This document shows positions 3,001-33,823 of a stretch of DNA of 64,000 nt, in pieces. Positions within the stretch are counted from its first letter, which is position 1. The number at the start of each line of letters is the position of its first letter. A model generated the notes under the pieces. That model worked only from the letters and a program-made list of their open reading frames with translations, did not search any database and was not told where the DNA came from. A program made the position numbers and the translations under genes. The DNA is from Spinacia oleracea (lineage: Eukaryota; Streptophyta; Magnoliopsida; Caryophyllales; Amaranthaceae), in NCBI RefSeq assembly GCF_020520425.1, contig NC_079487.1, forward strand, positions 132,082,385-132,146,384, written 5' to 3'.

Positions 3001-6000
3001 CAACTCCTCACTACAGTGAAGACATTGACACTTAAATGAGAAGTTTGACTTTATTATAATATAATCTACAAATTGCCCAATGCAGACTCTTCTGACATCA
3101 CTGAGATGTTTTTAGACCACTGAAACAATTATCAGCGGGATAATAAAACGGAAAGAAGTACAACTAATGGGTTCCCAAATGGAGCAAAAGGGGCTTCAAC
3201 AAAAAACCGGGGGGAAAAAGGGGTAGCAAAGTGGAGAGGTATGAAGTTTTATCAGCTTCTGCTTCCCCCTTTCAATAAAAAATTGGATCCTAATACTGGA
3301 TTTTAAGGGATGCAATTTACTTCTTCAATAAGAAAGAAGATACAAAAATACAAGCACATTGACAACAATTGAATCCCATAGCGAGACGTTTCCATTACAA
3401 GGAGACATTTACTGACTTAAGTCTTGAACTATCATGTTGTTCCAATCACGTACACTTATTTTGTCTTTTGCAATATGCTCAATTGTCCGGTACATTTAGC
3501 CATATAATTTAAAACATTGAAACCACTAACATGCCCATCAGTCCATCATACCGCCCACCCCCTCAACCTCAAAATGATTTCGATAGGAAGCAATCAGATG
3601 AATTAAGTGGATTAAATTTGGTAAAAGATTCAGCAAAAATCGGGCAGATAGGGCACTAGACCCCATAGTCAATTATGAAAAAAAGTCAGTAATGGGATGG
3701 CATGTTCATTGATGGACAGTAGCAATGTAGTAGTATATACCAAAGAGGCAAAGACAAACCCGGTAGGAGGTGAGGAGGGCAAATGGTTAGAGATTTTTTC
3801 GTAACCTGTTCAACTAATCATCACTACTAGAAGTCTAGCACTCAAGGCCAATGGTTCTTTGTGTAATGTAAATATTGACTGTTGTTCAAGTTCAGGTCTT
3901 CAGTATTTTCCCTTTCTTCATGATTTAAGTAATCTAAGTTTAATCAGGACAACAAGACTTCTAGCTTCCCGAAATATGATATACAGACTGAGCAATAGCA
4001 AATAACCTCTTACATTCAAATTGAAAATATCTCCCATCATTATATAAAAAGACAGGAACGGAATATATGTTCAAATCACTAGTCATGCAACTCATTACAT
4101 ACAGATTGAAAATATCTCCCATCATTATATAAAAAGACATGAATGGATTATATGTTCAAATCACTAGTCATGCAACTCATTACAAACGAATTGAAAATAT
4201 CTCCATCAATATATAAAAGTCATGGATACAGTATGTTCAAATCACTACCCATGTCACTTAGATACCAATCTATAGTCAGAATGGGATTTATAGCAGAACC
4301 AAAGAAGAGAGATGAGGAGAGAGAGATAAAAAGATGGACCCAAGTGATGGGGGGAGGAAGCTTTCTAAAAAGGAAAGTGTTGCAATTAAATATAACATTT
4401 CACCTCTTTCCTAATAATTTGAAACATGCAAATTTATATATTTCTACATTTCCCCGTTTCTGCGTTTCCCTTTGCATTCTCCATTTATGTGCAAGATAGT
4501 CATACAAACTGACCCATAAACCAATAATACCGAACTGTGTCAAAGATCATGTCAAAGTTTTCCTTCAAATATACATAATTGAATGGGAAAATCAAGGAGT
4601 TTTAGACACCAAATGAGAGGCTCTAGCAGTCCAGCCTAATATCGTTGGGACTAATCAAACAACAGAAATCACTAACCTGGACCATCAAGATGAAACGATG
4701 AGCACTACTAGTAAGCTTATACTGGTATCCTGCCATGCCAGCTGTGCTCAAAGGCCTTCCAGACTGACGTCCAACAGTAGGTGGATATGTCAAAATCCAA
4801 TCATCAGCAGCAGCTAAGGCAGCAGTACTCTCCTCTATCCTTTTAAAATTAGCATCAACTGCTTGTTCAACACTAGGCCTGAAGAGTTTCATTAGTGTTG
4901 GACAAAGTGACAGACCACGACCTTCCAATAGTGAACAATGGCCTAAAGCTATCTGAACACACTCAGCAGCTGCTCTTAGACCTCCTGCAGCTGCTGATGA
5001 AGCTAATGCATGCCTTTTAACAAGGTGAGCAAATGCTTCTATTTGCTGGGTAGCCCATGTAACCAACTCAGAAGTGTAGGCTGGTTCGCCACCAAAGATG
5101 GTTAAAGAATCACTAGCTGCCTGAGCAATAGCAGAAAAAACTAGCTGGGAAAGAGCAGCTGTGTAGGCTCCACCGTACGAGCTACTTGATGGACGGACAC
5201 TTAGCATGTTATACTGGTAGCGTTGTAAATGTGCACTGAGAAGTAAAGTATGAGCACGAGGACCATCGCCGAGTTTTTTAAGAGCTGATACAGAAGCACG
5301 AAGCTCAGTACCACGAGTAGTAGGTTGGCATGCAGCTTCTACTAGCTGATCAGCAAACTTCTGTCTCCTTTCTCTAATAGCATATTCAAGGGATGTGATC
5401 ACATCTGGACTGAGTGTTTTCGTTTCCTTGGCTTCAGATGCTACGCGTTCTCCTTCATTGAGGGCAGTCAGAGCTTCATCCACTCTTCTTTCAGCTAACA
5501 ATACGTCTAGGTGATCAGGGAATTCAAGCAACCATTTCTCCAGGTCTGAAGGTTCCCTTTCTTCACTGTTACTCATACCATTCATTACAGATCCTTCAGA
5601 ACTAGATACCGTTGACGATTCCATGTGGACTCCCTCAGCTAGTCCATGTATAAGAGTTGCTTGAGTGGTTAAAAGGTTTCTGATGGAAAGAAGCTCCCCC
5701 TCTAGATCTGATATTTCTTTTGATGTACTGCATTAGAAAGCCCTAGCCGTTAAATATAGCAGGATGGAGATTTTTAATCCTGAGGATTCTTTCATCAGAA
5801 TAAATATACAATCCACAAGGACCACAAGGTTGAAGCTGCATTAGTAAGCATGTCATGCTAAAAAATAAAGCCAGAAGATTCAATCAGGACGCCATCTATC
5901 CATGACATATACACCGAGAAAATAAAAAGACACAAATAAAAATGATAGAAACCTTCCCTGCTTATACTTCTGAACCATTCACTAAGTACTCATAGTGAGA

Positions 6001-10669: not shown

Positions 10670-12637
10670 CTACCAATAATCCCTGCAAGAGCAAGAACCA
10701 TTTTGAAAATGATGGAAACGATTTGTATCCCTCACAACAATTTCTCTTTCAATTACAATTGATGCAAATTTAAATGCTGAATGACAATCACCACATACTC
10801 GAATGTTCTTCTTAATTCGGATAGTGGATTTAGGCGGCGTGTTCAGACAAGCAAATGCCAAGGCAAGCTTTTCGCTGTGATGTTGCAATTTCACTTCTCT
10901 CTCATGCTCCTCTACAAACAAGAGAACATGACTTATATCTGGTACATAACCAATTCCTTTGATCTTTGCACATATACAATCCCACATCTCATAAATCTCT
11001 TTGCTTTGAGGATGAGTATCATCATCAGCAACAAACACATGAACTGAATTCCCAATCTCAACCCAGCTACAAGCAGGTTCCTTCCTTACCCTGCAATCTT
11101 TCATCATCTTTCTCACCTTAGCAACATCATTTCTTCTACCAGCCAAAGCATACATATTAGCAAGTATCACATACGGGCCTGAATCGTAAGGGTCAAGCTC
11201 AAAAACTCGTTCAGCTGCATAAACACCTAATTCCATGTTTCTGTGCATCCTACATGCACCCAACAGACATTTCCATATCTCTGCAACAGGATCCATGGGA
11301 ATATCCGTAATAAATCTCAGAGCTTGATCGAGTTTTCCCGCTCGTCCTAGTAAATCAACTATTGTGACGTAATGCTCAATTTTTGGGTCTAAACCATATG
11401 TTTTTTTCATCATCTTGAAGTAATACAGTCCTTGTTTCACAAACCCAGCATGGCTACAAGAAGTAAGCAAGCAAAGAAATGTTACCGCGTTAGGTTGTAT
11501 TCCAGTCTTTAGCATATTGTCAAATTGCTCCAATGATCTGTGCACAAGACCATGTTGGGCATATCCAGTTAACAATGAATTCCATGAAACAACATCTCGC
11601 ACCATCAATCTAGTAAATACCTTTTCTGCTTCCTCAACACTCCCACATTTAGCATACATATGAAGAAGAGTGTGCCCAACAAAAGCAATAAGCTTCACCC
11701 CATATTTTATCACATGAGCATGTATACACTTCCCTTGCTCCAAGACTCCTGTGTTGGCACATGCATTGAGTACAGTTGAATATGTGAAATCATTGGGCTC
11801 AAAATCTTCCCTTTTCATCCTTTGGAACAAACTAAGAGTTTCCTCTCCTCTTTCCTTTCGAGCATGGCCAGCCATTAGGGCATTCCAAGAAACCTCATTT
11901 TTGCTCACAAGTCCATCAAATACTGATTGCGCTTCATTCATAAGGCCACACCTTGCATACAAATCTACAAGAGAAGTTCCGACATAGACACTTGAATCAC
12001 AACCATATTTGATACAAAGGGTGTGTATATGCATACCATGCTTAGCACTACGTATTGTGTTGGAGGCCTTAAGGAGGCTAGAGAAGGTGAACTTGTTTGG
12101 TTTGAAACCAAGACAAAGCATCTTTGGAAATAAAGAAAGACCTTCCTCGGGCCTACCATTATGCGTATAAGCAATAATCATACTAGTCCAGGTGAATGTG
12201 TCCTTATACGGCATCTCATTAAAACATTTCCTAGCCTCATCTAAATTGCCACACTTAACATACATTTGTATGATGTTATTGAGAATAATAGTATCATCCT
12301 TAAACTCAGATGCAAGGACATTGGCATGAACTATTCTGCCTTCTCTGATATCACCCAACTCCATACATCTCTTCAACCCTCGTTCAACAACAAGTGCTCG
12401 TTGATTTTTTGTCCCAGAATCACTACTCTTGAGGAGAAGATCTTGATCGTGTGTTTGAAACGCGTCAAGAAGTCTTTCTTCTTCACATTCCAAAACATTG
12501 GGTTTGGTTGACAGGCGGCACACAGCCCGAGTTCCAAAGGAAGTTGAAATGTGTTCATGACATTCCCTCACAGAAATGAACCCTTTTAAATCGTTATAAG
12601 ACAATTTCCTCAAACAAAATGGTGTACTTCTTCTCAT
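10670..12637 (-). CDS. DYW-class pentatricopeptide repeat protein (At3g24000-like)
   Basis: This is an intronless 655-aa protein of the plant PLS-DYW PPR family, which acts in organelle RNA editing: the repeats select the transcript and the DYW domain is a cytidine-deaminase-like module. The N-terminus (MRRSTPFCLRKLSYNDLKGF) is basic and hydroxylated without acidic residues, fitting mitochondrial import. PPR repeats with WTSMIIAYTHNGRPEEGL, VSWNALMAGHARK and VVSWNSLLTGYAQHG patterns run from about residue 115 to 440. E/E+ motifs (IWKCLLGACRMHRN, EPACSWVEI) follow. The DYW domain has the zinc/catalytic HSE (587-589), CGDCH (615-619) and CSC, ending in DYW. From memory the sequence is closest to Arabidopsis At3g24000. 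All key deaminase residues are present. The start is the first in-frame ATG. The editing target cannot be read from sequence alone. Confidence 0.95.
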   Translation of the reverse strand: MRRSTPFCLRKLSYNDLKGFISVRECHEHISTSFGTRAVCRLSTKPNVLECEEERLLDAFQTHDQDLLLKSSDSGTKNQRALVVERGLKRCMELGDIREGRIVHANVLASEFKDDTIILNNIIQMYVKCGNLDEARKCFNEMPYKDTFTWTSMIIAYTHNGRPEEGLSLFPKMLCLGFKPNKFTFSSLLKASNTIRSAKHGMHIHTLCIKYGCDSSVYVGTSLVDLYARCGLMNEAQSVFDGLVSKNEVSWNALMAGHARKERGEETLSLFQRMKREDFEPNDFTYSTVLNACANTGVLEQGKCIHAHVIKYGVKLIAFVGHTLLHMYAKCGSVEEAEKVFTRLMVRDVVSWNSLLTGYAQHGLVHRSLEQFDNMLKTGIQPNAVTFLCLLTSCSHAGFVKQGLYYFKMMKKTYGLDPKIEHYVTIVDLLGRAGKLDQALRFITDIPMDPVAEIWKCLLGACRMHRNMELGVYAAERVFELDPYDSGPYVILANMYALAGRRNDVAKVRKMMKDCRVRKEPACSWVEIGNSVHVFVADDDTHPQSKEIYEMWDCICAKIKGIGYVPDISHVLLFVEEHEREVKLQHHSEKLALAFACLNTPPKSTIRIKKNIRVCGDCHSAFKFASIVIEREIVVRDTNRFHHFQNGSCSCRDYW

Positions 12638-13404
12638 GTATCACAAGAACAATAAAATAGCCAGAAAGTGTTGAACCCAGTAAATAGCTAGAGACTACAC
12701 AATACTAAACAAGCAGCATCATGAAATAAACAGCAGGCTATCTCTGACATTCTCCTACACCCCTGTAAGCATAAATGATGCAGAAAATTAGGAAAATCCA
12801 GTGAATCGGCACACTCTTGGACCATTTTAACAGAACTAGACAGTGAATTTGCACAACATTTTCTAAACTAAATCAATTGCGGAGTACACCCATGTTTTGG
12901 CTAGTGTTGTATAGGAATTTTTTGGATATTTTTAGCAATTTCAAACTAGTTCACCAGTAAATAATCTATCAAATGCAATTTGAACTATGTTTTTCTCCAA
13001 TCACTTGTCTTAATCGCCAGTGGTCCAGTATCTAACAAAAATTGAGCAGAATTGAAGAAATAAGAATGAACAAAGACGACCCCAGAAAATGAAATAGTCA
13101 ATTTCCATGACCCAAGTTCAAATTTCCAGATACATATGTCAGAAGTAACATACAAACACCTAATCAACTAAAACACAGATACCCAAATTTGAGAAATGTT
13201 AAATTGAAGAAAGATGAAGAACAGAATAAGAAAGAAAAAGAACAAAACTTTACCTTTTTTTTTAGAACTGAGCTGTTGTTTTGGTTCAACAATCAGAGGG
13301 AGCACTCGAGTTGAACAAGGAAAGGCGGAAAGAGGAGAGCTTTTGCAATTCATTCACTAAGCGAGGTTAAAAAAAAAAAGTCAAATGGAAAAAAACAAAA
13401 AGGA
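12638..13404. promoter_or_regulatory. Upstream region and probable leader of the PPR gene
   Basis: This is AT-rich non-coding sequence between the PPR start codon and the tRNA. On the minus strand near 13250 there is a donor-like AAAAAAAAG/GTAAAG at the end of a short open frame starting at 13353 (MNCKSSPLSAFPCSTRVLP). That could be a leader exon, but I see no proof that it is spliced to the PPR gene. Confidence 0.3.
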
Positions 13405-13476
13405 TGCGTCTGCCGGGAGTCGAACCCGGGTCTATTGCTTGGAAGGCAATTATCCTAACCGTTGGACTACAGACGC
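13405..13476 (-). tRNA. trnG-UCC (nuclear): tRNA-Gly (anticodon UCC)
   Basis: A 72-nt cloverleaf can be read on the minus strand. The acceptor arm GCGTCTG pairs with CAGACGC, with discriminator A. The D-arm region is TAGTCCAACGGTTAGGATA, the anticodon loop is CTTCCAA (anticodon TCC), and the T arm is CCGGGTTCGACTCCCGG with an intact B box GGTTCGACTCC. It has no intron and no encoded CCA. A T-rich tract just downstream on the minus strand (TCCTTTTTGTTTTT) fits a Pol III terminator. It looks like a functional nuclear, cytosolic glycine tRNA. Confidence 0.95.
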
Positions 13477-14932: not shown

Positions 14933-17900
14933 ATGGGGGGTGATTTCTCAGACTTTATATTCAAAGTGGATGATGAATCTGATAACGATGAAATTATTGA
15001 TATAATTGATGATCATGAAGATTCTTCGAGCATCAACGATGGAGAAAGTATTAGTCGTACTCATTATGGTAGCAGCGTCGTTGCTGATGGTAGCAGAGTC
15101 GTTGCTGATGGTCACTCCTATTCAGAACAATGGCCGCGGAGTTACAAGTACTAATACTACCTTTTTACATAACTTTGATTTATTTTTGTTTCCCTCTTAT
15201 GTTTTTGCTAATTAATTTGGATATTAAAGAATAATGTTGTTCTGTTTCGAAATAATTGTGAAATATACATACCAGTACTTAATTAATTCCAATTCAGGTG
15301 TTGAAAATCGTATAAATTGATACAATGTAGTCTGATTTTAGTCATGAAAACCTCGAAAAAAAAGTCCTTATGTATGTCAAGAATATCAAAGAAAACATGT
15401 AATATGTCATTTTGTTGCGCATGTAGTCTGATTTTAGTCCTGAAAACCTCGAAAAATGTCTGTGTATGTCAAGAATATCAATGAAAACCTGTAACTATGA
15501 TTTTTTTTTGTTTTGTTTCCTTCTTATGTTTTTGCTAATTAATTTGGATATGATAGAATAATGTTGTTCTGTTTCTAAAAAATTGTGAAATATACATAGC
15601 AGTACTTAATTAATTCGAATTCAGGTGTTGAAATTGAGAAATTGTATAAATTGATACAATGTAGTCTGATTTTAGTCATGAAAACCTCGAAAAAAGCCTT
15701 ATGTAGGTCAAGAATATCAAAGAAAACATGTAATATGTCATATTGTTGCGCGTGTATTGTGATTTCAGTCATAAAACCTCGAAAAATGTCTGTGTATGTC
15801 AAGAGTATCAGGATAACCTGTAACATGTGACTCAATTTGTTGCGGATGGATTTATCAGGCTATAAATTTGATACCATGTAGTCTGATTTCAGTCATAAAA
15901 ACCTCGAAAAATGTCTGTGTATGTCAAGAATATCAGGATAACCTGTAACATGTTACTTAATTTGTCGTTGATGGATTTATCATATGTCAAGAATATCAGG
16001 AAAACCTGTAACATGTGACTTAATTTGTTGCTGATGGATTTATCAGGTTATAAATTGATACAATGTAGTCTGATTTTGGTCATAAAACCTCGAAAAATAT
16101 CTATGTGTATGTCAAGACAAGAAAACTTGTCACGTTGGACATTGTTGCACAAGTTAGAGATGGATTTTATCATCCAATTCCTCAGGTTGCATTAGCTAGC
16201 AGTAGTTAACATGATAATGTAGTCTTATTTCAGTCATAAAACCTCGAAAAATGTCTGTGTGTGTTAAGAATATCAAAGAAAACCTGTAACCTGTGACTTA
16301 ATTTGTTGCTGATGGATTTATCAGGATATAAATTGATAACCATATAGTCTGATTTTGGTCATAAAACCTTAAAAAATGTATGTGTATGTCAAGAATATCA
16401 AGAAAAAACTCGTCACACATATTAGAGATGGACTTTATCATCCAATGTAGTTAACATGATATTGTAGTCTGATTTCAATCATAAAACCTCGAAAATTTTC
16501 TGTGTATGTCAAGAAAAAACTTGTATGATAGTGATTTTGCTTAATCTTTTTGGTTCCCTGATGTAATGCAGAGAAACAACAGACTCGCTCTCAATTGCTG
16601 CATCACCAAATGGCATTAACTTTCTTAAACAAGCACAAAACATAACTCAAAACATTACACAAAGCATAACCAATATTACTTCGAGCCATCAAGATCTCGG
16701 TGCCAAGGCGCCTTTGCTTACTCCTAATGATAAATCCAAAGAACAGTTTGACAAACTTTCTAGCACTTTAACATGGTCAACAATAGGGAAATCATCTTTC
16801 TTTCATACTTCAGGGGAACAGATTACTCATGGATGCAATGTCACACAAACTGTTTTTAATGGTAAAAACCTAAAATTCTGTTCCTTTAATCTGTTCTTTT
16901 TATTAGTTACATAGTCGTTTGATTCAATCTTGGTTTATATATGCATATCAGGGTTCAGTTTATTTGTTGGCATCGGACTTCTATCAGTGCCATCTACAAT
17001 ACAACAAGGAGGTTGGGCAAGTGTAGGATTATTACTTCTGTATGCAGGAATTTGCTATTTTACAGGCTATCTTCTGAGGAGATGTATGGAAATCAACAAA
17101 GACATCGTTACTTTTCCTGACCTTGGAGAAGCCGCTTTTGGAAACTTTGGCCGTGTTTTTGTATCTGTGAGTTTCACAGTCGTCTATCTGAATGTTTATG
17201 TTTTGAAATCTATTATGATCGTCTTCTAACAAACTTGTTTTTTTTGTTTTTTATTTTATGAATGTTATTTGCAGATCCTCTTCTATTGGGAGTTATATGT
17301 AAGTATGAATTGAATATCATGGTCTAGGAAGATTTTCGGGTATATTCTGCTATATTCTGCACTTGTTTACTGATAATTTTTTTTAATGCAGTTCAGTCTT
17401 GTGGAATTCGTTACGTTAGAATCATCTAATCTTGCTAAACTATTCCCAAATGTCTCCTTACAATGGGGTGGGATTTACCTTGGCCCGGTTTACTCTCTTG
17501 GAATAATTTCTGCTCTCATTGTTCTACCAATATGCTACCTCAGAGATTTTCGCAAAATCTCCTTCATTTCTGGTATACTGACATCAAACAATTCACCAAC
17601 ACTTAAAATTTCTATGGCTATCATAATGTAATCTCATCAATAAACTGTATAAACTCGACTTTTTGCAGCTGGTGGCGTACTTGGAGTAGTATGCATAGCA
17701 CTTTCACTACTTTTAGTCGGTACAACAACTGAAAACATTGGATTTCATCAAACTGGGCCTTTAGTGAAGTGGAATGGCCTTCCCTATGCTTTTGGTGTGT
17801 TCGGTTTTTGCTACTCCGGACATTCTATCCTTCCAAACCTGTATCATTCAATGTCAGACAAGAAGAAATTTCACAAGGCACTGACAATAATGTATGGATG

Positions 17901-18952
17901 ATTTGATTTGTGTTCTCTTCATTCTGAAAGTTGGAAATTTCAGTTCACTTCTTAGCTAGTCTTAAATTAATTCTGATAAGTTGAAATGCAGTTTTGCATT
18001 GTCTATCTCAGTGTACCTCCTCGTGGCAATTTCGGGGTTTCTCATGTTTGGTGAAGACACAGACTCTCAAATCACACTTAATCTACCAGCGAACTCTGTT
18101 GCTACAACAATTACTCTGTGGATGACGGTAAGTATTTATGTATGATTTTAATTATATCTTTAAACTATATGTCAAAATTTGTTCTGCTTGCAACTTATTA
18201 CTTCATTCATCTGTTTTTCAGGTTCTGAGTCCCTTCTTCAAATATCCTTTTCGAGTTTTCATATTTTTACCATTCTAATACACTTCTTTATAGTTATGTT
18301 ACGTTCCTATCTGTTTATGTTCCCTTAACGAGTGCATACATATCCCTTACTGTTAAACCCTTTGGCTAGGAGTCTAGAAGAGTTGTTACCACCACATTTA
18401 TCCAACAATTGGTGGTGCATAATTCCTCTAAGAACTGCTCTTGTAGTTTCGAGTGTCTGTGTTGCGTTCCTGGTACCCTTTTTCGGTATGTTATAGAGTT
18501 TAGACACTAACCGAAACATATATAAATATAACTTTTACTAACATTATGAATTGCAGGTTATGTGATGGCCTTTGTAGGATCGTTGGTGTGCTTACTAGCG
18601 GTAGGGTGACTAAAATATTGCTTAGCATCATTTGTTAACTTTCCAGACTATCTGACTTAAATCTTACCCTATATGTTTGTAAATGCAGTCTATTGTAGTA
18701 CCAGCTCTCGGCTATGTAAAAATAGCGAAAAATTTGTCATCCATACAGGTATTCCACATACTGCAGTGTTTCAGACACACCAAATGCTTTCTGATACAAT
18801 TTGTGTAAGAAAAAAAGAAAGAACTAACACTTTACTACAACTTTTGTGTGTATTTACAGATTATCATGTGCTATGCAGTCGCGGTGATGGGACTCACAGT
18901 GGCGGTTCTTGGGACGTATTCTTCAATCTACAACATCATCCACAGTTATTGA
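14933..18952 (+). CDS. AVT1: AVT1-type vacuolar amino-acid transporter, 12 exons
   Basis: This is a member of the amino acid/auxin permease superfamily (AVT1 branch), which moves neutral amino acids across the vacuolar membrane. Exons: 14933-15147, 16572-16861, 16952-17166, 17275-17298, 17392-17572, 17669-17891, 17992-18127, 18222-18241, 18340-18485, 18557-18600, 18689-18748, 18860-18952. They sum to 1,647 nt, an open frame of 548 aa, the usual family length. Residues 1-170 form an acidic, Ser-rich cytosolic tail. Membrane segments follow with hallmark stretches GFSLFVGIGLLSVPSTIQQGG, GYLLRRCMEINKD, YPDLGEAAFG-like FPDLGEAAFG, LPICYLRD, GHSILPNLYHSM and ARSLEELLP. All introns are GT-AG except 18242-18339, which is AT-AC with U12 signals; using it is what keeps the frame open. 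Exons 4 (24 nt) and 8 (20 nt) are micro-exons. Substrate specificity is inferred from the family. Confidence 0.92.
15189..16530 (+). repeat. Intron-1 minisatellite and 328-bp duplication in AVT1-like gene
   Basis: Intron 1 (15148-16571) is largely made of repeats. A first-order duplication puts 15189-15516 next to a copy at 15517-15840 (TTATGTTTTTGCTAATTAAT start words, offset 328). Within it and beyond, a core containing GTAGTCTGATTT, AAAACCTCGAAAAATG and GTGTATGTCAAGAATATC recurs about nine times, at roughly 15350, 15440, 15680, 15775, 15895, 16085, 16240, 16365 and 16480. A second word, TTGCTGATGGATTTATCAGG, accompanies several copies. All of it lies inside the intron and leaves the splice sites untouched. 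Confidence 0.85.
18242..18339 (+). other. U12-type AT-AC intron in the AVT1-like gene
   Basis: The intron starts ATATCCTTTT, the classical minor-spliceosome 5' splice site, and ends GCATAC. A TTCCCTTAAC branch-point motif lies at 18320-18329, with the branch A 11 nt from the 3' end. Removing these 98 bp joins AA to ATAT and gives ...SPFFKYPLLLNPLARSLEE in frame, which matches the KYA...P.A.SLEEL block of the family. No GT-AG choice in this interval keeps the frame and the conserved block. Confidence 0.88.
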
Positions 18953-20132: not shown

Positions 20133-22601
20133 ATGTTTTCATGCCAGCGCATAACTGGGACTTATTCTTTGAGTTTTCCTCCTTCCTTCACAAGTTTCTT
20201 ATTGCCAGCTCCTTTGCCTACCTGGCCTCAAGGTATGATTTTTCAATTCAATCTCTGAAATTGTTTGGTTTTTTTGAAGAATGAATTAATAATAGTGGGT
20301 TTTTGGTTGTAATTGGGTTTACGTTGAAAATATGTAATTTGATCAACTTTGAGTTATTTTTGTTAGACACTAGTGTACCCTCCTGAACTTGATGGATATG
20401 TAACATTCTACATTCACCAACCATTTTGATAGACAACAATAAATGGAGTTTATAATAATTGACTAATTTTGTATGTATGTTGGAGAAAGTCGATATCCAT
20501 TTTTCCTCAACATATGGAAATGGAATCTCTATGTCATTGGCGAAACTTGGCCAATAAAATAAGGGGCCAAGGTTTGAAACTTCAACCTTTTGTCGAATAT
20601 TCAATCAATATGTCATAATATTTTATATACATATTAGCCCTGATGGAAGATCTTCCTCTGTATATTGAACACTTGTTTTCTTATTATAAATCTCCTTACC
20701 ACTCAAATGCTACAATCAAAGTGGTGTTGAATAAAATTGAAATGTTACGAAGAAAACGAGACAATTTAATATGGGGTTGTACAAGCATTACCATAGATTT
20801 TGAGGAGAGATTCATCGTACTACATGTGGTATATATTAAGAATCACAATCATGGGCGAATCTACCAAGGACGCGTCTATCCTCTTTAGAATATTATTACT
20901 ATGATTAATATCAAAAATAAAGTTTTAGCTTGGTGGTATGTGTTAATGTGTTATTCCATATAAAGCTTATTTTCCTTAAAAGAAAATAAAATATATGAAA
21001 CACTCATGTTGTCCATTTCAATAATTACGTAATTTAAGTACTTATATCTACCAATGTATCATATTCTAAATTCGTGGATCCGCCACTGATCACAATTTCC
21101 CTCTTTTGTGTTGATTTTATTTTTACAAGGACGAGGATTTGCAACAGGAACAATAAACCTCGGAGACTTAGAGGTTACAGAAATAAGCAGATTCGAGTTT
21201 GTATGGGGATCTCATCTTTCACATGACAAACGAAAAAGTGTTTCATTCTACAAACCTTTAGGAATACCTGAAGGATTTTTCTGCCTTGGTCATTACTGTC
21301 AACCAAATGGCAAACCTTTAAATGGTTATGTTCTTGTAGCCAAAGATTTAGTGTCACAAAATCGCGGTATTACTGACTCTGACAATGAACCAGTATCAGT
21401 GTATTCACCAGCACTTTCAAAGCCTCTTGACTATACTCTAGTTTGGAATTCAGATGATGGCATGGCAATTCGCGACCAACCTTCTTTCTTTTGGGTACCG
21501 AAACCACCTCGTGGGTATAAAGCCCTAGGTTTTGTTGTTCTAACACGGCGAGGTAAACCTCATTTGGATGAAGTAAGATGTGTTAGAGAAGATCTTGTTG
21601 ATGATTGTGAGACTTCTGGTTTACTGTTTGAAACACTTTCAAAATTCAGAAAAATCTCTTTCAAAGTTTTTGAAACTAGGCCTTGTAATGGAGGTATGTT
21701 AGGGAAAGGTGTTTCAGTAGGAACCTTCTTCTGTAACAGTCAATTTACTGGTGGAGAAGAACCTTCTATTGTTTGTTTAAAGAATAAGAACTCAAAATGG
21801 CAACATGGATTACCTAATCTTGATCAAATCCATGCACTTATTCAGCATTATGGTCCAACCATTTTCTTTCACCCTAAAGAGGTTTACTTCCCATCTTCTG
21901 TCCCATGGTTCTTTGAACATGGAGCTTTGTTGTTCAAAACGGGTCAATCCACGGGCGAATCCGTCAATTCTGACGGGTCAAACCTTCCTAACAGTGGAAC
22001 AAATGATGGGGAATTCTGGTTAGATTTTCCATCAGATCATGATAAAAGAAAAGCTCTAAAGAGTGGTAGCCTTGAAAATGCTCAACTTTATGTTCATGTA
22101 AAACCAGCTTTAGGTGGTACTTTTATTGACATAGCAATGTGGTTGTTTTCACCTTTCAATGGACCATCAACCCTTAAAATTGGACCAACTAACATTTCAT
22201 TGAGAAAAACAAGTGAACATATTGTTGATTGGGAACATTTTACACTTCGTATAAGCAACTTCACTGGTGAGCTACATTGTATGTATTTCTCGCAACATAA
22301 TGATGGTCTTTGGATAAGTGCCTGTGATTTGGAGTTCATCGAAGGGAACCGACCTGTTCTTTACTCGTCTAAGAGCGGTCACGCTACGTTCGCTCACCCG
22401 GGGACTTACCTTCAAGGGTCCTCAATTTTGGGGATAGGTATAAGAGATGATTGTTGTAGAAGTGACTTCTGTTTGGATTCTAGTACACAATACCAAATTG
22501 TTGCTGCTGAATATCTAGGAAATGAAGTTGTTGAGCCTTCTTGGCTGCAATTTATGAGAGAATTGGTACCAAAGGTCATCTTTGACCAAGAAACTGTTTG
22601 A
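20133..22601 (+). CDS. DUF946 / VPS62-like protein
   Basis: Two exons (20133-20232 and 21130-22601) join in phase to give a 523-aa protein of the plant DUF946 family, annotated elsewhere as vacuolar protein sorting-associated protein 62-like. Its biochemical role is not established. The short first exon encodes MFSCQRITG and ends FLLPAPLPTWPQ, matching the family's LPAPIPQWPPG entry. Exon 2 begins GRGFATGTINLGDLEV and holds the whole domain, with conserved FEFVWGSHLS, YKPLGIPEGFFCLGHYCQ, FWVPKPPRGYKALGFVV, YGPTIFFHPKEVYFPSSVPW, HVKPALGGTFIDIAMW, VDWEHFTLRISNFTGEL, YSSKSGHATFAHPGTY and GIGIRDDCCRSDF. No signal peptide or membrane segment is apparent. The 897-bp intron may hold a degenerate mobile element. 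The first in-frame ATG was taken as start. Confidence 0.92.
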
Positions 22602-23730: not shown

Positions 23731-26700
23731 TTATGTATCCTTAAGTACTAAATTATTTATCTGTTTTTCGTCGAGAAGATTTTTGCACCTCCCTTTGAGC
23801 TCCTTAAATCTGTCAACATCAAATTGGTACTTCTTGAACAGCTTCCTCTGCCTTGAAAGGAAGAGTGTCTTCATCAAGTCTTGGTATGTTGGATCTTTTG
23901 AGGTGATCATAAAGTAACCATAACCGATCACTAAACCGGTGGCTGTTGTGAAAAATGCAATCGGCTCCATCACATCCCACGAGAATTCCCAGAAAGTAAG
24001 ACGGAAGAAAAGCCCAACCTGCATTACAGCAACACCAAGGCCTGACCATAGTATCAAACGAACTTGCCTGTGTGCCTGCCTGTCAATTTCTTCCTTTCTT
24101 TCTTGTAACCTCTGCAGCTCCGCTCTCCTAGGATCGTCTTCTGGAGTTAAGGCAAGTGGGACCGAGCTCCTAACCAGTTCAACCACCTAGGGTACAAAAG
24201 AGGAAGGAAGACATAAATGAGATGGCGGGTGTGACCAGAAATCATGTCTACGATTGTGCGAAAATATCAGAGGGGATTTAGTGCTTTGAGAGCTGAAAAC
24301 AAGAGTGACTATGGTTTAAGGACAGAAATGTGCTTTGAATTAGCAAAAGAAATACAACATAGTTCTTTGATTCACTGTCTTATACCCTAAAAGTGACGTG
24401 AACACATTTAGGGAGCGTGTGATTCCCATTTTTCTTTGCTTAGTTTGTAAGGAAAATTGTTTCCAAGTGGTGGCATACAACTCTATCAAGGTGGAAAATA
24501 TTTTCCTTTTGAAAGTAAGGGGAAACACATTTTCCTCCCTCCTCCTTACCTCTCATCCTCCTCCCATCAACCCCACCCTTCTGTTTCCATTTTCCTTTTC
24601 TCTATAACTTTTCTTGTAATGAAACAAACAAAGGAAAAGTAGTTTGGAATTGTGTTTTCCGTCAAACCAAACGGAGCCTTTCTCTCGAAGATACAGAAAA
24701 AGACACAGAGCACTTATCATTGTCAAACATACCCTCCAAAAAACAAAAACAAATCCAGCACCAGAAGCTCTAACATCTACCTATCACTATCCAAAGCTTT
24801 CAATTAAGAAGGCCTGTATATATACTTGGAACAAAGAAAATTTACAGAATATTTGCTAGGAAAAAGCTAATAGTCAAGTTGTAAGAGGACAATAACCACA
24901 AATAAGAATGCAAATCTTAATTGGACGAGGGAATCTGATTCCTCTTCAGAAACATCCAAAGGGAAAGTCTCCCAACCTGTTGCTGCTCAGAAGTGCTGAT
25001 CCAAAATCAGCTTCGAAACTCCTCCTTTCACCTCAAAGGCTCAAACTACTTAGAAAAAGGTTGCTAAGCATTAAACAAGAATATAAATCCTAAATTCCTA
25101 ATTAGATACTGAACCTGATTCCTCTTCAAAAAGATCCAAATGAACAATCTGTTGGTATTCTTAAGAGCGGAATTACAGTAACCATTAGAGCTCCGTTTCT
25201 TTCCTCTTTTATTAGCCTTAACCTACAAAACCCTAGCAAGAACATCTAACATACTAGTTCATCAGTCATCATCACTATTTCAAGAAAAGATTATGGGTAT
25301 TTCAGAAATCATCCTAACTGCAACTTACCTACAACACAATTCAATCTATATATGACATCCCTTCCCTTCCCTCTCCCCGTCCCACTCCCACCCCACGTCC
25401 CCACCAAATCCCAAAAAAAAAAAGGAAGTAACAACAAAAACTTAAGAAAGCCGCATTCCTTTATAATCCTGCAAACAGCAAGCAAGATCACATGGGAACG
25501 GGCGGAGAGAGAGCAAAGCAAGTTCCTAACAAGTTGACAAGCGTTATGAGCCTAACATAACAATTGTGCATACTGCAGACAATCTCTTCATATGACATTT
25601 AGATTCCTCTATTAGTCTATATGATTAATCTCCGTGAATGACTTGTCAGAATCCTTTTAGACCCACCACCTTGAATTCCTCAAATACTACTCAAGGCTAA
25701 TCATAAACAGTAAAATAAACTAACAATACAACTTACTTATATTATACTGAACCAGTATCTAGATATTCACCTAGATTTTGTCTGACTGTGAAACCCTCCC
25801 ATGGGCTTACCACTCAGCACTAGATAGAGAAGCTCAAATTTCTTGTTCTCGTCCCCCAAAATATGTCTTGATATGACCACTTTCAAGTTGACAAAGTGTC
25901 AAACATGAGGTATCATGCTCAGAATTGCAAATAAATGGGTAAAAAAGAACCGTCTTCCGATTAGAGAGTGGATTAAGTATAGTCATAGCATTTAATCAGC
26001 TAGATCCCGCAATTTATAATCTCAACCCTCAATCCATTCCCCGGTTTTAGAAAGCATTTGACTGTTTGATCTTAATTACCAAAAACAGAGCAGCTTTTGC
26101 CCAGTTTCTCTAGGGTCTTGCTATTAAAGAAAGTTTAAGGATTAGTTTATGCAAGGCTCTACATGAAAGAAACTATCTAGATCAGATGGTATCCTGAGAG
26201 TGCTGGTTGGATGCTTAAAGAACGTTTGGTAATACACAAATAACATCAGCTGTGACTCCTATGATTCAGTATGATTGGAAAATCCTCTATCAAGATGAAT
26301 GTATACTAAATCGAAAGGTTCTAAGAAAGGGGTTAATAACAGCATTGCTCCTGAAATTGCTTTCATCCTTTGGTGACCCATACAAACTAGTGATTGGATC
26401 TTTGAAAATGGGGACTTAACATACATCAAAGATGAACACTGCACTCTACAACACACTATAACCACCTTTCCTTAGGATGTGAATCGCATGTGATTATGCT
26501 AGCAATCTTCCATACAAAAGAGCCCCTAGATAAGACATATACTCCATCTATCCCTTTTGTTTTCCCAAATTTCCTTGTTGGGATGTCCCCAATAATTGCC
26601 CCGTACTAAAAACGACCATGGGAACCACAACTCTACGCTCATAACCCTATTCAACCAAAATTATATTAAAAAAAATAGCTTGGGGCAAACAATTGGGGCG

Positions 26701-30103: not shown

Positions 30104-32836
30104 TCATAGAAAGCACATTACATTGGTTGCTTGTCTTTGGAATCCATTTGAGTATGAGAAAACACCAACACCCCCGTTGTGCATAGGGACAGTGTGGTGG
30201 GACTGTTGAGTTGATGTAGCAACACTTGCATCCCGCTTCTTCTGCTTAGGTGCATTCTGCTTTGGCTGCTTAGGTGCCTTAGGTGGTTGATCTGCCTTTA
30301 GTGGTGCAGAACACTTTCTCTTGTTGTGTCCTGCTTCACCACAGTTGCTGCACCTCATTGTAATCCCTTTTTTGGTCAACCTTGTACCAGTAACTTCTCC
30401 AACAGATGGCTTTCTTTTGACTGTAGGCCTATTGTGAATCTTTTTCACTGGAGGTGCGACTATGGAGGCATAGGGTGACTGAGGCCAATCTTGAGGGCCA
30501 TTAAGTGGCTCTAATGGGAATTCGTATGCCTTCAGATATGTGTTCTTTGAGAAGTAGTGTGATAAATAGTGTTCAGGCATTTCCTTAGCTTTCCATATCG
30601 CAGCAACTGCATGATTACATGGCACTCCACTTAGTTGCCAAGCATTGCAACTACATGTTCTTTCAAGCAAGCTCACCACATATCTTGTTTGAGATAAACC
30701 TTCTCTGACCCCATAACAGAAGTGACCATCCCAAAATGCAAGCCAACCCCTAGCATCAACCTTTGATTTCTCCAACTTTGCTTTTATCCTTGGGCATATG
30801 TCAACTTCTTTATTTGCAATGAAGTCCCTTTTTTTGTGTAGCCTCTCCATTAACCCTTCCCTAATGTCTTCAAGCATTGTTATGATTGGTTTATGCCTTG
30901 ATGATAAGATATAGGCATTGAACACCTCATTCATGTTATTGTCAATGCAATCACAATGAGAAGTTGTAGTAAAAAAGGCCCTCACCCACTTTTTATAGTT
31001 TCTCTTCTTTAAATCTGATGCAGCTTCTTTAGATATGTTAGCAAAGAGTTGCATGTTGGAATCATACTCAGCTTCTGTGGTGCTTTTTGCAATCTTCCAG
31101 AAACCTCTTCTATATTGCACTCCACCACCAAACACTTGCCTGAAATTACAGTAGACATGTCTGGCACAACATCTAGTATCTGCTTTAGGCCATATCAGAG
31201 AAACAGCATTGAGCAACCCTTTTTGTTGATCAGACATGATTGTGTAACCATGACCATCACTCGTTCCAAGGTCATCCGCCAGCAACTGTAAGAACCAGCT
31301 CCAAGTCTCAGTGTCTTCAACTTCAACACAAGCCCAAGCAATAGGGAACATTTGGTTGTTTCCATCCCTACCAACTGCTACAAGAAGTTGACCACCAAAG
31401 GGACCTTTCAAAAAACATCCATCAATACCAAAAAAGGGCCTGCATCCAGCCAAAAACCCCTTCTTAATTGCATTAAAGCAAACATACAAGCTCTTAAAAA
31501 CACCATTGTTCAGTTTGAACTTGATAGTGTTCATTGGATTTGTCCTTTTAATCTCTTCAGCATATCTATTTAGAAGACCATATTGCTCCTTATATTCACC
31601 AAGTATAAGTCCTTGTGCCTTTCTTCTAGCTTTCAGTGCAAGCCACAATGATGCCTTGACTCCTTTTTCAGCCCATAATGTGTCCACTATCTCTTGGCAT
31701 TTGATGTAAGGGTTGATCTTGAACTTTTGATGGTATATCTTTGCAATCCAAGCTGCCCTGATCTTCTTTACTACTGGTAACCTACCACAATTGTGCTGAG
31801 GAACAAGGGTCTTGACAATTAAGTGTCCTTTTCCTCTTATAAGTGAGGTGTACACATAGAAAGGGCACTTCTCTGCTTTACATCTAGCTCCAAGCTTCTT
31901 GGCATCATTCCTTGTGAAGTATGTATCTCTCCCAACAGACAAGCAATAGTTAGTCACTGCATCTCTAAACTCAACTGCGTTCTCAAACTCTTGACCTAAG
32001 TAGAACGGACAATCTTGTTCAAGCAACCCACCATCTGAGGTAACAATTGTCTTCCTCGCCTTCTGCTTTTTCTTTGGACATGGTTGTGCTAAGAGGTAAC
32101 CATAATCATCCTCATCCTCAGAATTTGGAGGGCTCTCAAATTCAGAAGATTCACCCTCATAATCAGAACTTCCTTCTTCAATATCCTTTCCCTTCCTCTC
32201 AGCTAGCCTTCTAAGTGATTTAACTTCATCCTCGAATGATTTCTCTTTCTTTTTCTCTTGTTGTATCATCATTCTTGCTTCTCTAACTTCGTCATCTTCA
32301 TTGTCAGAACCCTCCTCATCATAATCAATTTCACCTATCATATTACTACCACTTGCTCTGCCACTGTGCTCAAATAGATGACTCTGAGCAGTAAGATCAT
32401 CAATGAATTCAGAGTGTTCAGTGTTGAGATCTTCAATGAACTCAGCTTCTTCAGTAGTGAGATCTTCAATGAACTCGAGTTCTTCAACAAAGGCCTCAGG
32501 TTGTTCAATAGTGATATCTTCAATCAATTCTTCATCATGTTCTGTAAATACATCTAGCATCCTATACTCCTTTAGTAGACTAATGAACATTCCAAATGTA
32601 GTGTCATCATAACCTAAGAACATAATTCCTTGTTGAATGTCTTTCAAAGGGTCACAGTAGTGTGTCTTAATAATGTTATTGTAACCTAAAGAATTGATCA
32701 ATGTCCTAAGGTATCTCGGACTCAAATCACTAGGAAGGTCATTGACCAACTTCACATCACCCCCGAAATAACTTAATTTTGGATTGTTAACCCACTTTCC
32801 TCCGTGATGAATGACAATACACATTGGTATATCCAT
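30104..32836 (-). CDS. MULE transposase (MuDR family, PB1-like N-terminus)
   Basis: This is a transposase of the plant Mutator superfamily with no stop in 910 codons from the start chosen here. Numbering from an in-frame ATG at 32863, the parts are: a PB1-like plant mobile domain (IVIHHGGKW to LGYDDTTF, about 15-90); an acidic linker with repeated EFIEDL/EFIDDL units (129-158); the MuDR DNA-binding domain (about 284-362, with CKAEKCPFYVY); the MULE transposase core with catalytic D481 (FGIDGCFLKG) and D545 (MSDQQKGL) and CCARH; a SWIM zinc finger (CSCN...GVPCNH, 737-751); and a zinc knuckle CSNCGEAGHNKRKC (838-851). I prefer the start MDIPMCIVIHHGG at 32836 because an acceptor TTGGTACAG ends at 32840, just before it. 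A spliced leader from 33671 or further upstream is likely. Confidence 0.9.
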   Translation of the reverse strand: MDIPMCIVIHHGGKWVNNPKLSYFGGDVKLVNDLPSDLSPRYLRTLINSLGYNNIIKTHYCDPLKDIQQGIMFLGYDDTTFGMFISLLKEYRMLDVFTEHDEELIEDITIEQPEAFVEELEFIEDLTTEEAEFIEDLNTEHSEFIDDLTAQSHLFEHSGRASGSNMIGEIDYDEEGSDNEDDEVREARMMIQQEKKKEKSFEDEVKSLRRLAERKGKDIEEGSSDYEGESSEFESPPNSEDEDDYGYLLAQPCPKKKQKARKTIVTSDGGLLEQDCPFYLGQEFENAVEFRDAVTNYCLSVGRDTYFTRNDAKKLGARCKAEKCPFYVYTSLIRGKGHLIVKTLVPQHNCGRLPVVKKIRAAWIAKIYHQKFKINPYIKCQEIVDTLWAEKGVKASLWLALKARRKAQGLILGEYKEQYGLLNRYAEEIKRTNPMNTIKFKLNNGVFKSLYVCFNAIKKGFLAGCRPFFGIDGCFLKGPFGGQLLVAVGRDGNNQMFPIAWACVEVEDTETWSWFLQLLADDLGTSDGHGYTIMSDQQKGLLNAVSLIWPKADTRCCARHVYCNFRQVFGGGVQYRRGFWKIAKSTTEAEYDSNMQLFANISKEAASDLKKRNYKKWVRAFFTTTSHCDCIDNNMNEVFNAYILSSRHKPIITMLEDIREGLMERLHKKRDFIANKEVDICPRIKAKLEKSKVDARGWLAFWDGHFCYGVREGLSQTRYVVSLLERTCSCNAWQLSGVPCNHAVAAIWKAKEMPEHYLSHYFSKNTYLKAYEFPLEPLNGPQDWPQSPYASIVAPPVKKIHNRPTVKRKPSVGEVTGTRLTKKGITMRCSNCGEAGHNKRKCSAPLKADQPPKAPKQPKQNAPKQKKRDASVATSTQQSHHTVPMHNGGVGVFSYSNGFQRQATNVMCFL

Positions 32837-32839
32837 ATC

Positions 32840-33823
32840 CTGTACCAATAAAAAATGAAACAAAATAAAGTCATTATTTGGTTGAACCTAAAATAAGTGA
32901 AAGACACAATAAAAATGAAACATAATAAGGGATGATGATACTTTATTTGATCATCTAAAATGAAATGAGAAGTATTTAAACCTCACTGTTCACATCTAAT
33001 CATCTTGCAATCACTAACAAGAAATTTTAGCATGAAATTTTACACAATAAAATACACTTAGTCACACTCAAAAATATTCACTAAAGTCTCCATACCTAGA
33101 TAATATTATGTACAACAGAGGGAGAATGGAATTTCAAGTATAACAAAAGTGATATAGCATCATTAAGGGACTAGTTCCTTTGAGACCAACACACTGCCAA
33201 TGTAACTAGCTTTCATAACTTCACAACTTCGTAAATTCCTTATTGTCTTATTCAACGAGGTAAAATCACCTTAGTAGAACAAGACTACCTTTCCACTAAA
33301 AATTGGAAGAAAAGTAAAATTACCATCTAATATGTAGTTTGTTAAAAAGAAAAAGTATGCGGCTTCTCCGAAAGTCTTTCCAGCCCTTAGCATATCACCA
33401 ATTCATATATGATATTCATCAAAAATATCCTTCCCAAATCCTAACTTAAATCCAACAATTATTCATAAAACCATATTAAACACATTATAAACATAAGTAT
33501 ACCATATCTAAACATGTCAAGAACACAATTCAATAGCCACAACTTCATGATTATAAACCTTCCCCTGTTATACCATGAAAATACCCTTCCCAAACCCTAA
33601 CTAAAACCCACAAACTAAAACAATAGAATTTCATGATGATAAGAAAAAAATATATAACCAAAATACATACCTTGATGATTGTTGTGTTTTTAATCAAACA
33701 AAAACCGAGCTTGAAGCTTTGAAGGACCTTCAATGGAGTTTGTGATGTTTTAAGGGGATGGAGTTCGCAGGAAGTGAGGAAGCAGGGAATTGTCGTTTCT
33801 TTTCTTTTTGGGTGAAACAACAA
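32840..33823 (-). other. Probable leader exon and 5' intron of the MULE transposase
   Basis: A strong donor CATCAAG/GTATGT at 33671/33670 and an acceptor TTGGTACAG at 32840 define an 831-bp intron. The upstream exon carries an open frame from ATG 33823 (MLFHPKRKETTIPC) that would join phase 0 to the transposase frame (...TTIIK + DMDIPM) and add 51 residues plus D. It may be coding or just an untranslated leader; the protein family normally starts near MDIP. Confidence 0.5.

Follow-up and report, generated by a model that had tools for sequence, protein, structure and literature searches.

The window analyzed here, a 64-kb stretch of Spinacia oleracea DNA, contains an intact Aa_trans gene on the plus strand (14933–18952), whose 12 exons form one frame of 548 codons. 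Scanned without exon 1, the predicted protein matched Pfam Aa_trans (PF01490) over profile positions 3–409 of 410 (E 2.1e-56). On the strength of its SLEEL-type motif we take the gene to be a member of the AVT1 group of the AAAP family, and it resembles that group in plants both in carrying the Aa_trans domain end to end and in its KY(A/P)....P.A..LEEL-type block. Ten of the 11 introns have GT-AG ends, none of these with a U12-like donor, and intron 8 has AT-AC ends. Elsewhere in the window, the minus strand carries an open frame for an Exo84-like exocyst subunit (4626–5732), an uninterrupted 656-codon PPR protein with E, E+, and DYW motifs of the organelle RNA-editing type (10670–12640), a tRNA gene scoring 73 bits (13405–13476), an open frame for a mitochondrial calcium uniporter (23731–24186), and an open frame of 927 codons (30104–32887) whose MuDR DNA-binding, MULE transposase, and SWIM domains predict either a Mutator-like element or a gene of Mutator-like descent. 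A Vps62-domain protein is encoded on the plus strand downstream of the transporter (21090–22598). The features of the transporter gene are as follows.

14933–15147, plus strand: exon 1, with the putative start ATG and an acidic N-terminus, joined to exon 2 in phase 2
16572–16861, plus strand: exon 2, with GT-AG borders and an open frame
16952–17166, plus strand: exon 3, encoding the bulk of the Aa_trans domain's first part
17275–17298, plus strand: exon 4, a small exon of 24 nt (ILFYWELY) with GT-AG borders
17392–17572, plus strand: exon 5, from the gene assembly
17669–17891, plus strand: exon 6, from the gene assembly
17992–18127, plus strand: exon 7, from the gene assembly
18128–18221, plus strand: intron 7, an ordinary GT-AG intron (GTAAGT...TTTTTCAG), read from the sequence
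18222–18241, plus strand: exon 8, a 20-nt microexon encoding VLSPFF plus two bases of K
18242–18339, plus strand: intron 8, a predicted U12-type AT-AC intron of 98 nt in phase 2, from sequence signals and the open frame
18242–18251, plus strand: predicted U12-type 5′ splice site ATATCCTTTT, from the motif
18321–18329, plus strand: predicted U12-type branch site TCCCTTAAC, 8/9 against TTCCTTRAY
18338–18339, plus strand: predicted 3′ splice site AC, 11 nt past the branch A
18340–18485, plus strand: exon 9, starting A-TAT-CCC (K/Y/P) and encoding PLARSLEEL
18557–18600, plus strand: exon 10, from the gene assembly
18689–18748, plus strand: exon 11, from the gene assembly
18860–18952, plus strand: exon 12, carrying the stop codon TGA

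Exon 1 is the least certain of the exons, as it was placed on frame alone, without homology support. At the place equivalent to exon 4, a 24-nt exon ending GAGCTATAT could also be read in a paralogue described below (L014). Intron 1 contains a degenerate minisatellite (15325–16515) with units of ~63, 92, and 125 bp; in a genome search that skips common words, one stretch of it gave six matches, all at its own locus.

Introns of the U12 type have the consensus (A/G)TATCCTT at the 5′ splice site and TTCCTTRAY at the branch site. The donor core at 18242, ATATCCTT, matched the former exactly. The branch region TTCCCTTAAC occupies 18320–18329 and its branch site agreed with the consensus at eight of nine positions (one mismatch), placing the branch A at 18328. 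An earlier note on this DNA had proposed a minor-class AT-AC intron at exactly these coordinates (18242–18339) in an AVT1-like gene, with a branch motif 11 nt from the end and an AC 3′ end. Both the signals and the frame agreed with that proposal: 11 nt follow the branch A to the end of the intron, and the AC lies at 18338–18339.

Joining 18241 to 18340 produced VLSPFFK-YPLLLNPLARSLEELLPPH in a single frame that was open through to the stop, the codons at the junction being AA|A-TAT-CCC (K-Y-P) followed by LLLNPLARSLEELLPPH. Removal of the intron left the block KY(5)P.A.SLEEL intact, so the note's further claim that frame and block are restored together was also borne out. When the intron was retained, translation continued as SPFFKYPFRVFIFLPF and then met a stop, with the frame ending 11 codons past the split lysine codon. 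A frameshift or sequencing error in the TTT at 18361–18363 was considered and dropped, since the AT-AC junction restores the frame exactly. Because ATATCC is present at the donor and again at the start of the next exon, seven pairs of cuts yield an identical mRNA, and only the pair at shift 0 has AT-AC ends. We therefore placed the cut at 18242/18339 by the consensus and the AT-AC ends, the mRNA sequence being the same for all seven pairs.

To estimate how often such signals arise by chance, we simulated 60 single strands of 64 kb, matched to the window in dinucleotide make-up, and allowed introns of up to 1500 nt. Donor starts with an exact donor, branch site, and AC occurred 0.05 times per 64 kb, rising to 0.72 per 64 kb when up to one branch mismatch was allowed, which is the match level of the real site. 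At that same level the window itself contains three donor/branch/AC combinations on the plus strand (two of them from the 18242 donor) and four on the minus strand. The AT-AC motif alone is thus within chance for 64 kb; the motif being insufficient by itself, the site is secure because of the restored frame and two paralogues.

We found these paralogues by searching the genome of the window with the core of the transporter as query (51 matches) and reading two intron-rich genes, L014 and L015, around the intron site. L014 (C1:36.0 Mb; 51% identity to the window protein over 356 columns) has the 20-nt exon GTGATTAACCCATTTACAAA, the donor ATATCCTTTC, the branch site TTCCTTGAC, and an AC end, with an intron of 121 nt. 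L015 (C3:60.27 Mb; 42% identity over 290 columns) has the 20-nt exon GTGGTCAATCCGTTTACAAA, the donor ATATCCTTTA, the branch site TTCCTTAAC, and an AC end, with an intron of 1103 nt. The donor ATATCCTTT was exact in both and the branch site matched at 9/9 positions in both, with 10 nt from branch A to intron end in each, compared to 11 nt in the window gene. In both genes coding resumes with A-TAT-GC (K-Y-A), nucleotide and phase (phase 2) being those of the window gene, and in all three genes the AT-AC intron is preceded by a 20-nt exon that itself follows a GT-AG intron. Sharing of position, phase, and three signals with L014 and L015 would not be expected by chance and, at the level of sequence, is the decisive evidence.

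An alternative is that the major spliceosome cuts this stretch at GT-AG sites, either from a donor at 18132 or 18229 to the AG ending at 18332 (MHTYPLLLNPLARSLEEL) or from 18128 to 18382. The earlier note had held that the gene runs into stops when read by GT-AG rules, which proved nearly, but not fully, right: 17 of the 307 GT/GC-AG models across the region stayed open to the stop, all three of these pairings among them. What stood was that none of the 307 kept KY(5)P.A.SLEEL whole. The 18132–18332 and 18229–18332 models retained YPLLLNPLARSLEEL and placed MHTY where SPFFKY would be, losing the K and the residues before it, and the strong donor at 18128 used with the AG at 18382 skipped the microexon in frame at the cost of part of the domain. 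Each GT-AG model thus loses or alters a block that both intron-bearing paralogues have in closely similar form and that the intronless paralogues show in a looser version (KYAL...P...). In addition, the AG ending at 18332 lies just 4 nt past the U12-type branch A at 18328, and the 20-nt exon and AT-AC signals common to three genes are left unexplained by GT-AG models. We consider major-spliceosome cutting very unlikely to be how this stretch is spliced, and it is more plausible that GT-AG products are minor or stress isoforms. The breaking of the conserved block by GT-AG splicing might also be taken to mean that the locus is a pseudogene or an assembly error with coincidental U12 signals. We give this almost no credence, given 12 exons in one frame with borders that are all GT-AG or AT-AC, and the same arrangement at two separate loci.

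The distribution of the intron within the family bears on its age. Of the 17 genes compared, three had an intron of the same position and phase, and these three fell together on one side of the tree; at the other 14 AVT1-like loci the site was uninterrupted in a translated alignment. In 13 of these 14 intronless loci the DNA reads straight through the site as KYAL or KYEL; the remaining one, L020, lacks three residues there and did not match the read-through pattern. An unrooted FastTree phylogeny of the 17 genes separated the three intron-bearing from the 14 intronless genes with a split support of 1.000, although some rows were incomplete (166 to 372 of 380 columns for the intronless genes, 290 for L015, and 356 for L014). 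The comparison and the tree were made without fragment or near-duplicate matches (e.g., C1:96065802, C5:2316458, C6:3050540, C5:2285076, and C5:2308381), without L001–L008, L011, and L012 (some of which coincide with later loci), and without L022, L023, and L032–L042 as members of other subfamilies. Among the intronless loci, L016, L030, and L031 appeared broken or partial. At 3561–3865, L016 contains two similar tandem copies of one segment (ISPLSKY, then ISLLPKYALL) with parts missing, and it is probably a decaying gene.

From these sequence comparisons, the intron very probably predates the split of the window gene from its two diverged paralogues and was inherited by one transporter subclade. 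The earlier note had raised the question of whether the intron is ancestral; its presence with identical position and phase in two diverged paralogues of this genome answers that question in part, in favor of an old origin. A gain of the AT-AC intron within the subclade, rather than a loss from the intronless clade, would accord with the fully supported separation of the two groups, and the ATAT repeat found at both intron ends in all three genes would fit insertion at a short duplication. The tree is unrooted, however, and wholesale intron loss would fit the intronless paralogues, most of which have an unbroken C-terminal half and two of which have almost the entire domain in one piece. Stasis of minor introns in land plants, as described in PMC10639083, also counts against a gain, and we regard a gain as somewhat unlikely. 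Close to the equivalent place, members that we take to be of the AAP, AUX1, and related types carry introns of the ordinary GT-AG kind. The window junction falls at about Pfam profile position 287/288, as extrapolated from an upstream piece that reaches 282 and a downstream piece that starts at 288, and the AAP- and AUX1-type exon ends fall at about 275 to 299, with overlaps. Positional homology with other AAAP subfamilies was tried as a reading and not adopted; identity of position, like a U12-to-U2 conversion, may or may not hold.

In the minor spliceosome, the AAGGA of U6atac and segments of U12 and U11 pair with the donor and the branch site. The window's genome contained two loci for U6atac, three for U12, and one for U11 above the Rfam cut-offs. 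AAGGA was present in both U6atac copies, GTAAGGAA in the one copy read of the three U12 loci, and AAAAGGG in the single U11 copy. No U4atac was found in this genome among the 49 candidates scored out of 47,826 from a first look. The 14 control genomes gave no match for U11, U12, U6atac, or U4atac, and these controls are therefore silent on the sensitivity of the search.

Taking this evidence together, we conclude, with a probability of roughly 95%, that the intact AVT1-like gene carries at 18242–18339 an inherited AT-AC intron, which the minor (U12-dependent) spliceosome is predicted to remove. The signals, the restored frame, the conservation in paralogues, and the matching snRNA motifs are read from the DNA, and from them we infer that the intron is spliced out in the plant and that the snRNAs pair with it. 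In minor splicing generally, U11/U12 recognizes the donor and the branch site together, U6atac then takes the place of U11, and the intron is released as a lariat. At this locus, U11 and later U6atac would pair with ATATCCTT and U12 with the branch site, and splicing would join the 20-nt exon (18222–18241) to exon 9. By analogy, if splicing failed, 18127 might be linked in frame to 18383; this join, one of the 17 open GT/GC-AG models, would delete the stretch from VLSPFFK to SLEE.

The intron shares its terminal dinucleotides, donor, branch site, and short distance from branch to end with known plant U12-type AT-AC introns, and differs from them in nothing of kind. PMC7367187 puts the AT-AC share of U12 introns at 26% for Arabidopsis, 23% for soybean, 22% for rice, and 13% for maize, and PMC5716242 gives 81 AT-AC pairs in Arabidopsis representative transcripts. 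No title or abstract opening among the papers searched tied a U12 intron to AVT1-like transporters. By term search, “transporter” was absent from the main text of PMC2426677, PMC4892727, PMC3422263, PMC5716242, and PMC6865273, and the literature passages searched named neither the host gene nor the 20-nt upstream exon. Counterparts of the intron in Arabidopsis may well be in print already. The intron belongs to a rare, known class and is unexceptional within it; this analysis adds the conservation of the 20-nt exon and the contrast of presence and absence within the family, the window gene being intron-rich with a U12 intron, unlike the 14 AVT1-like paralogues examined that are uninterrupted at the site. 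One practical outcome is a model for genes of this subclade of transporters, genes that predictors limited to GT-AG introns would be liable to get wrong.

The arrangement of a major intron directly upstream of a minor one recalls the exon bridging between adjacent minor and major introns covered in PMC8034651. That work concerns vertebrates, whereas the bridging exon of the window gene is merely 20 nt and cross-talk across it would be a matter of analogy. Cross-talk of the two spliceosomes could be probed in the three genes of this genome as a compact natural system: in each, a 20-nt exon separates a major from a minor intron, the minor introns range from 98 to 1103 nt, and 14 examined paralogues have no intron at the site. 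It is doubtful, though conceivable, that the unit of major intron, 20-nt exon, and AT-AC intron serves the transporter subclade as an ancient switch under selection. If it were, the 20-nt exon would be definable only with the minor spliceosome assembled on the AT-AC donor, and minor-spliceosome activity would gate production of the full-length transporter, with failure leading to an early stop or to an in-frame, domain-deleting skip.

The start of exon 9 (18340–18348) reads ATATCCC, a copy of the donor ATATCC, and the window protein therefore has KYP where the examined paralogues have KYA or KYE. KYP was found in the window gene only among the 17 genes, L020 having YA after a short gap. One G-to-C change or local conversion would explain the KYP of the window gene.
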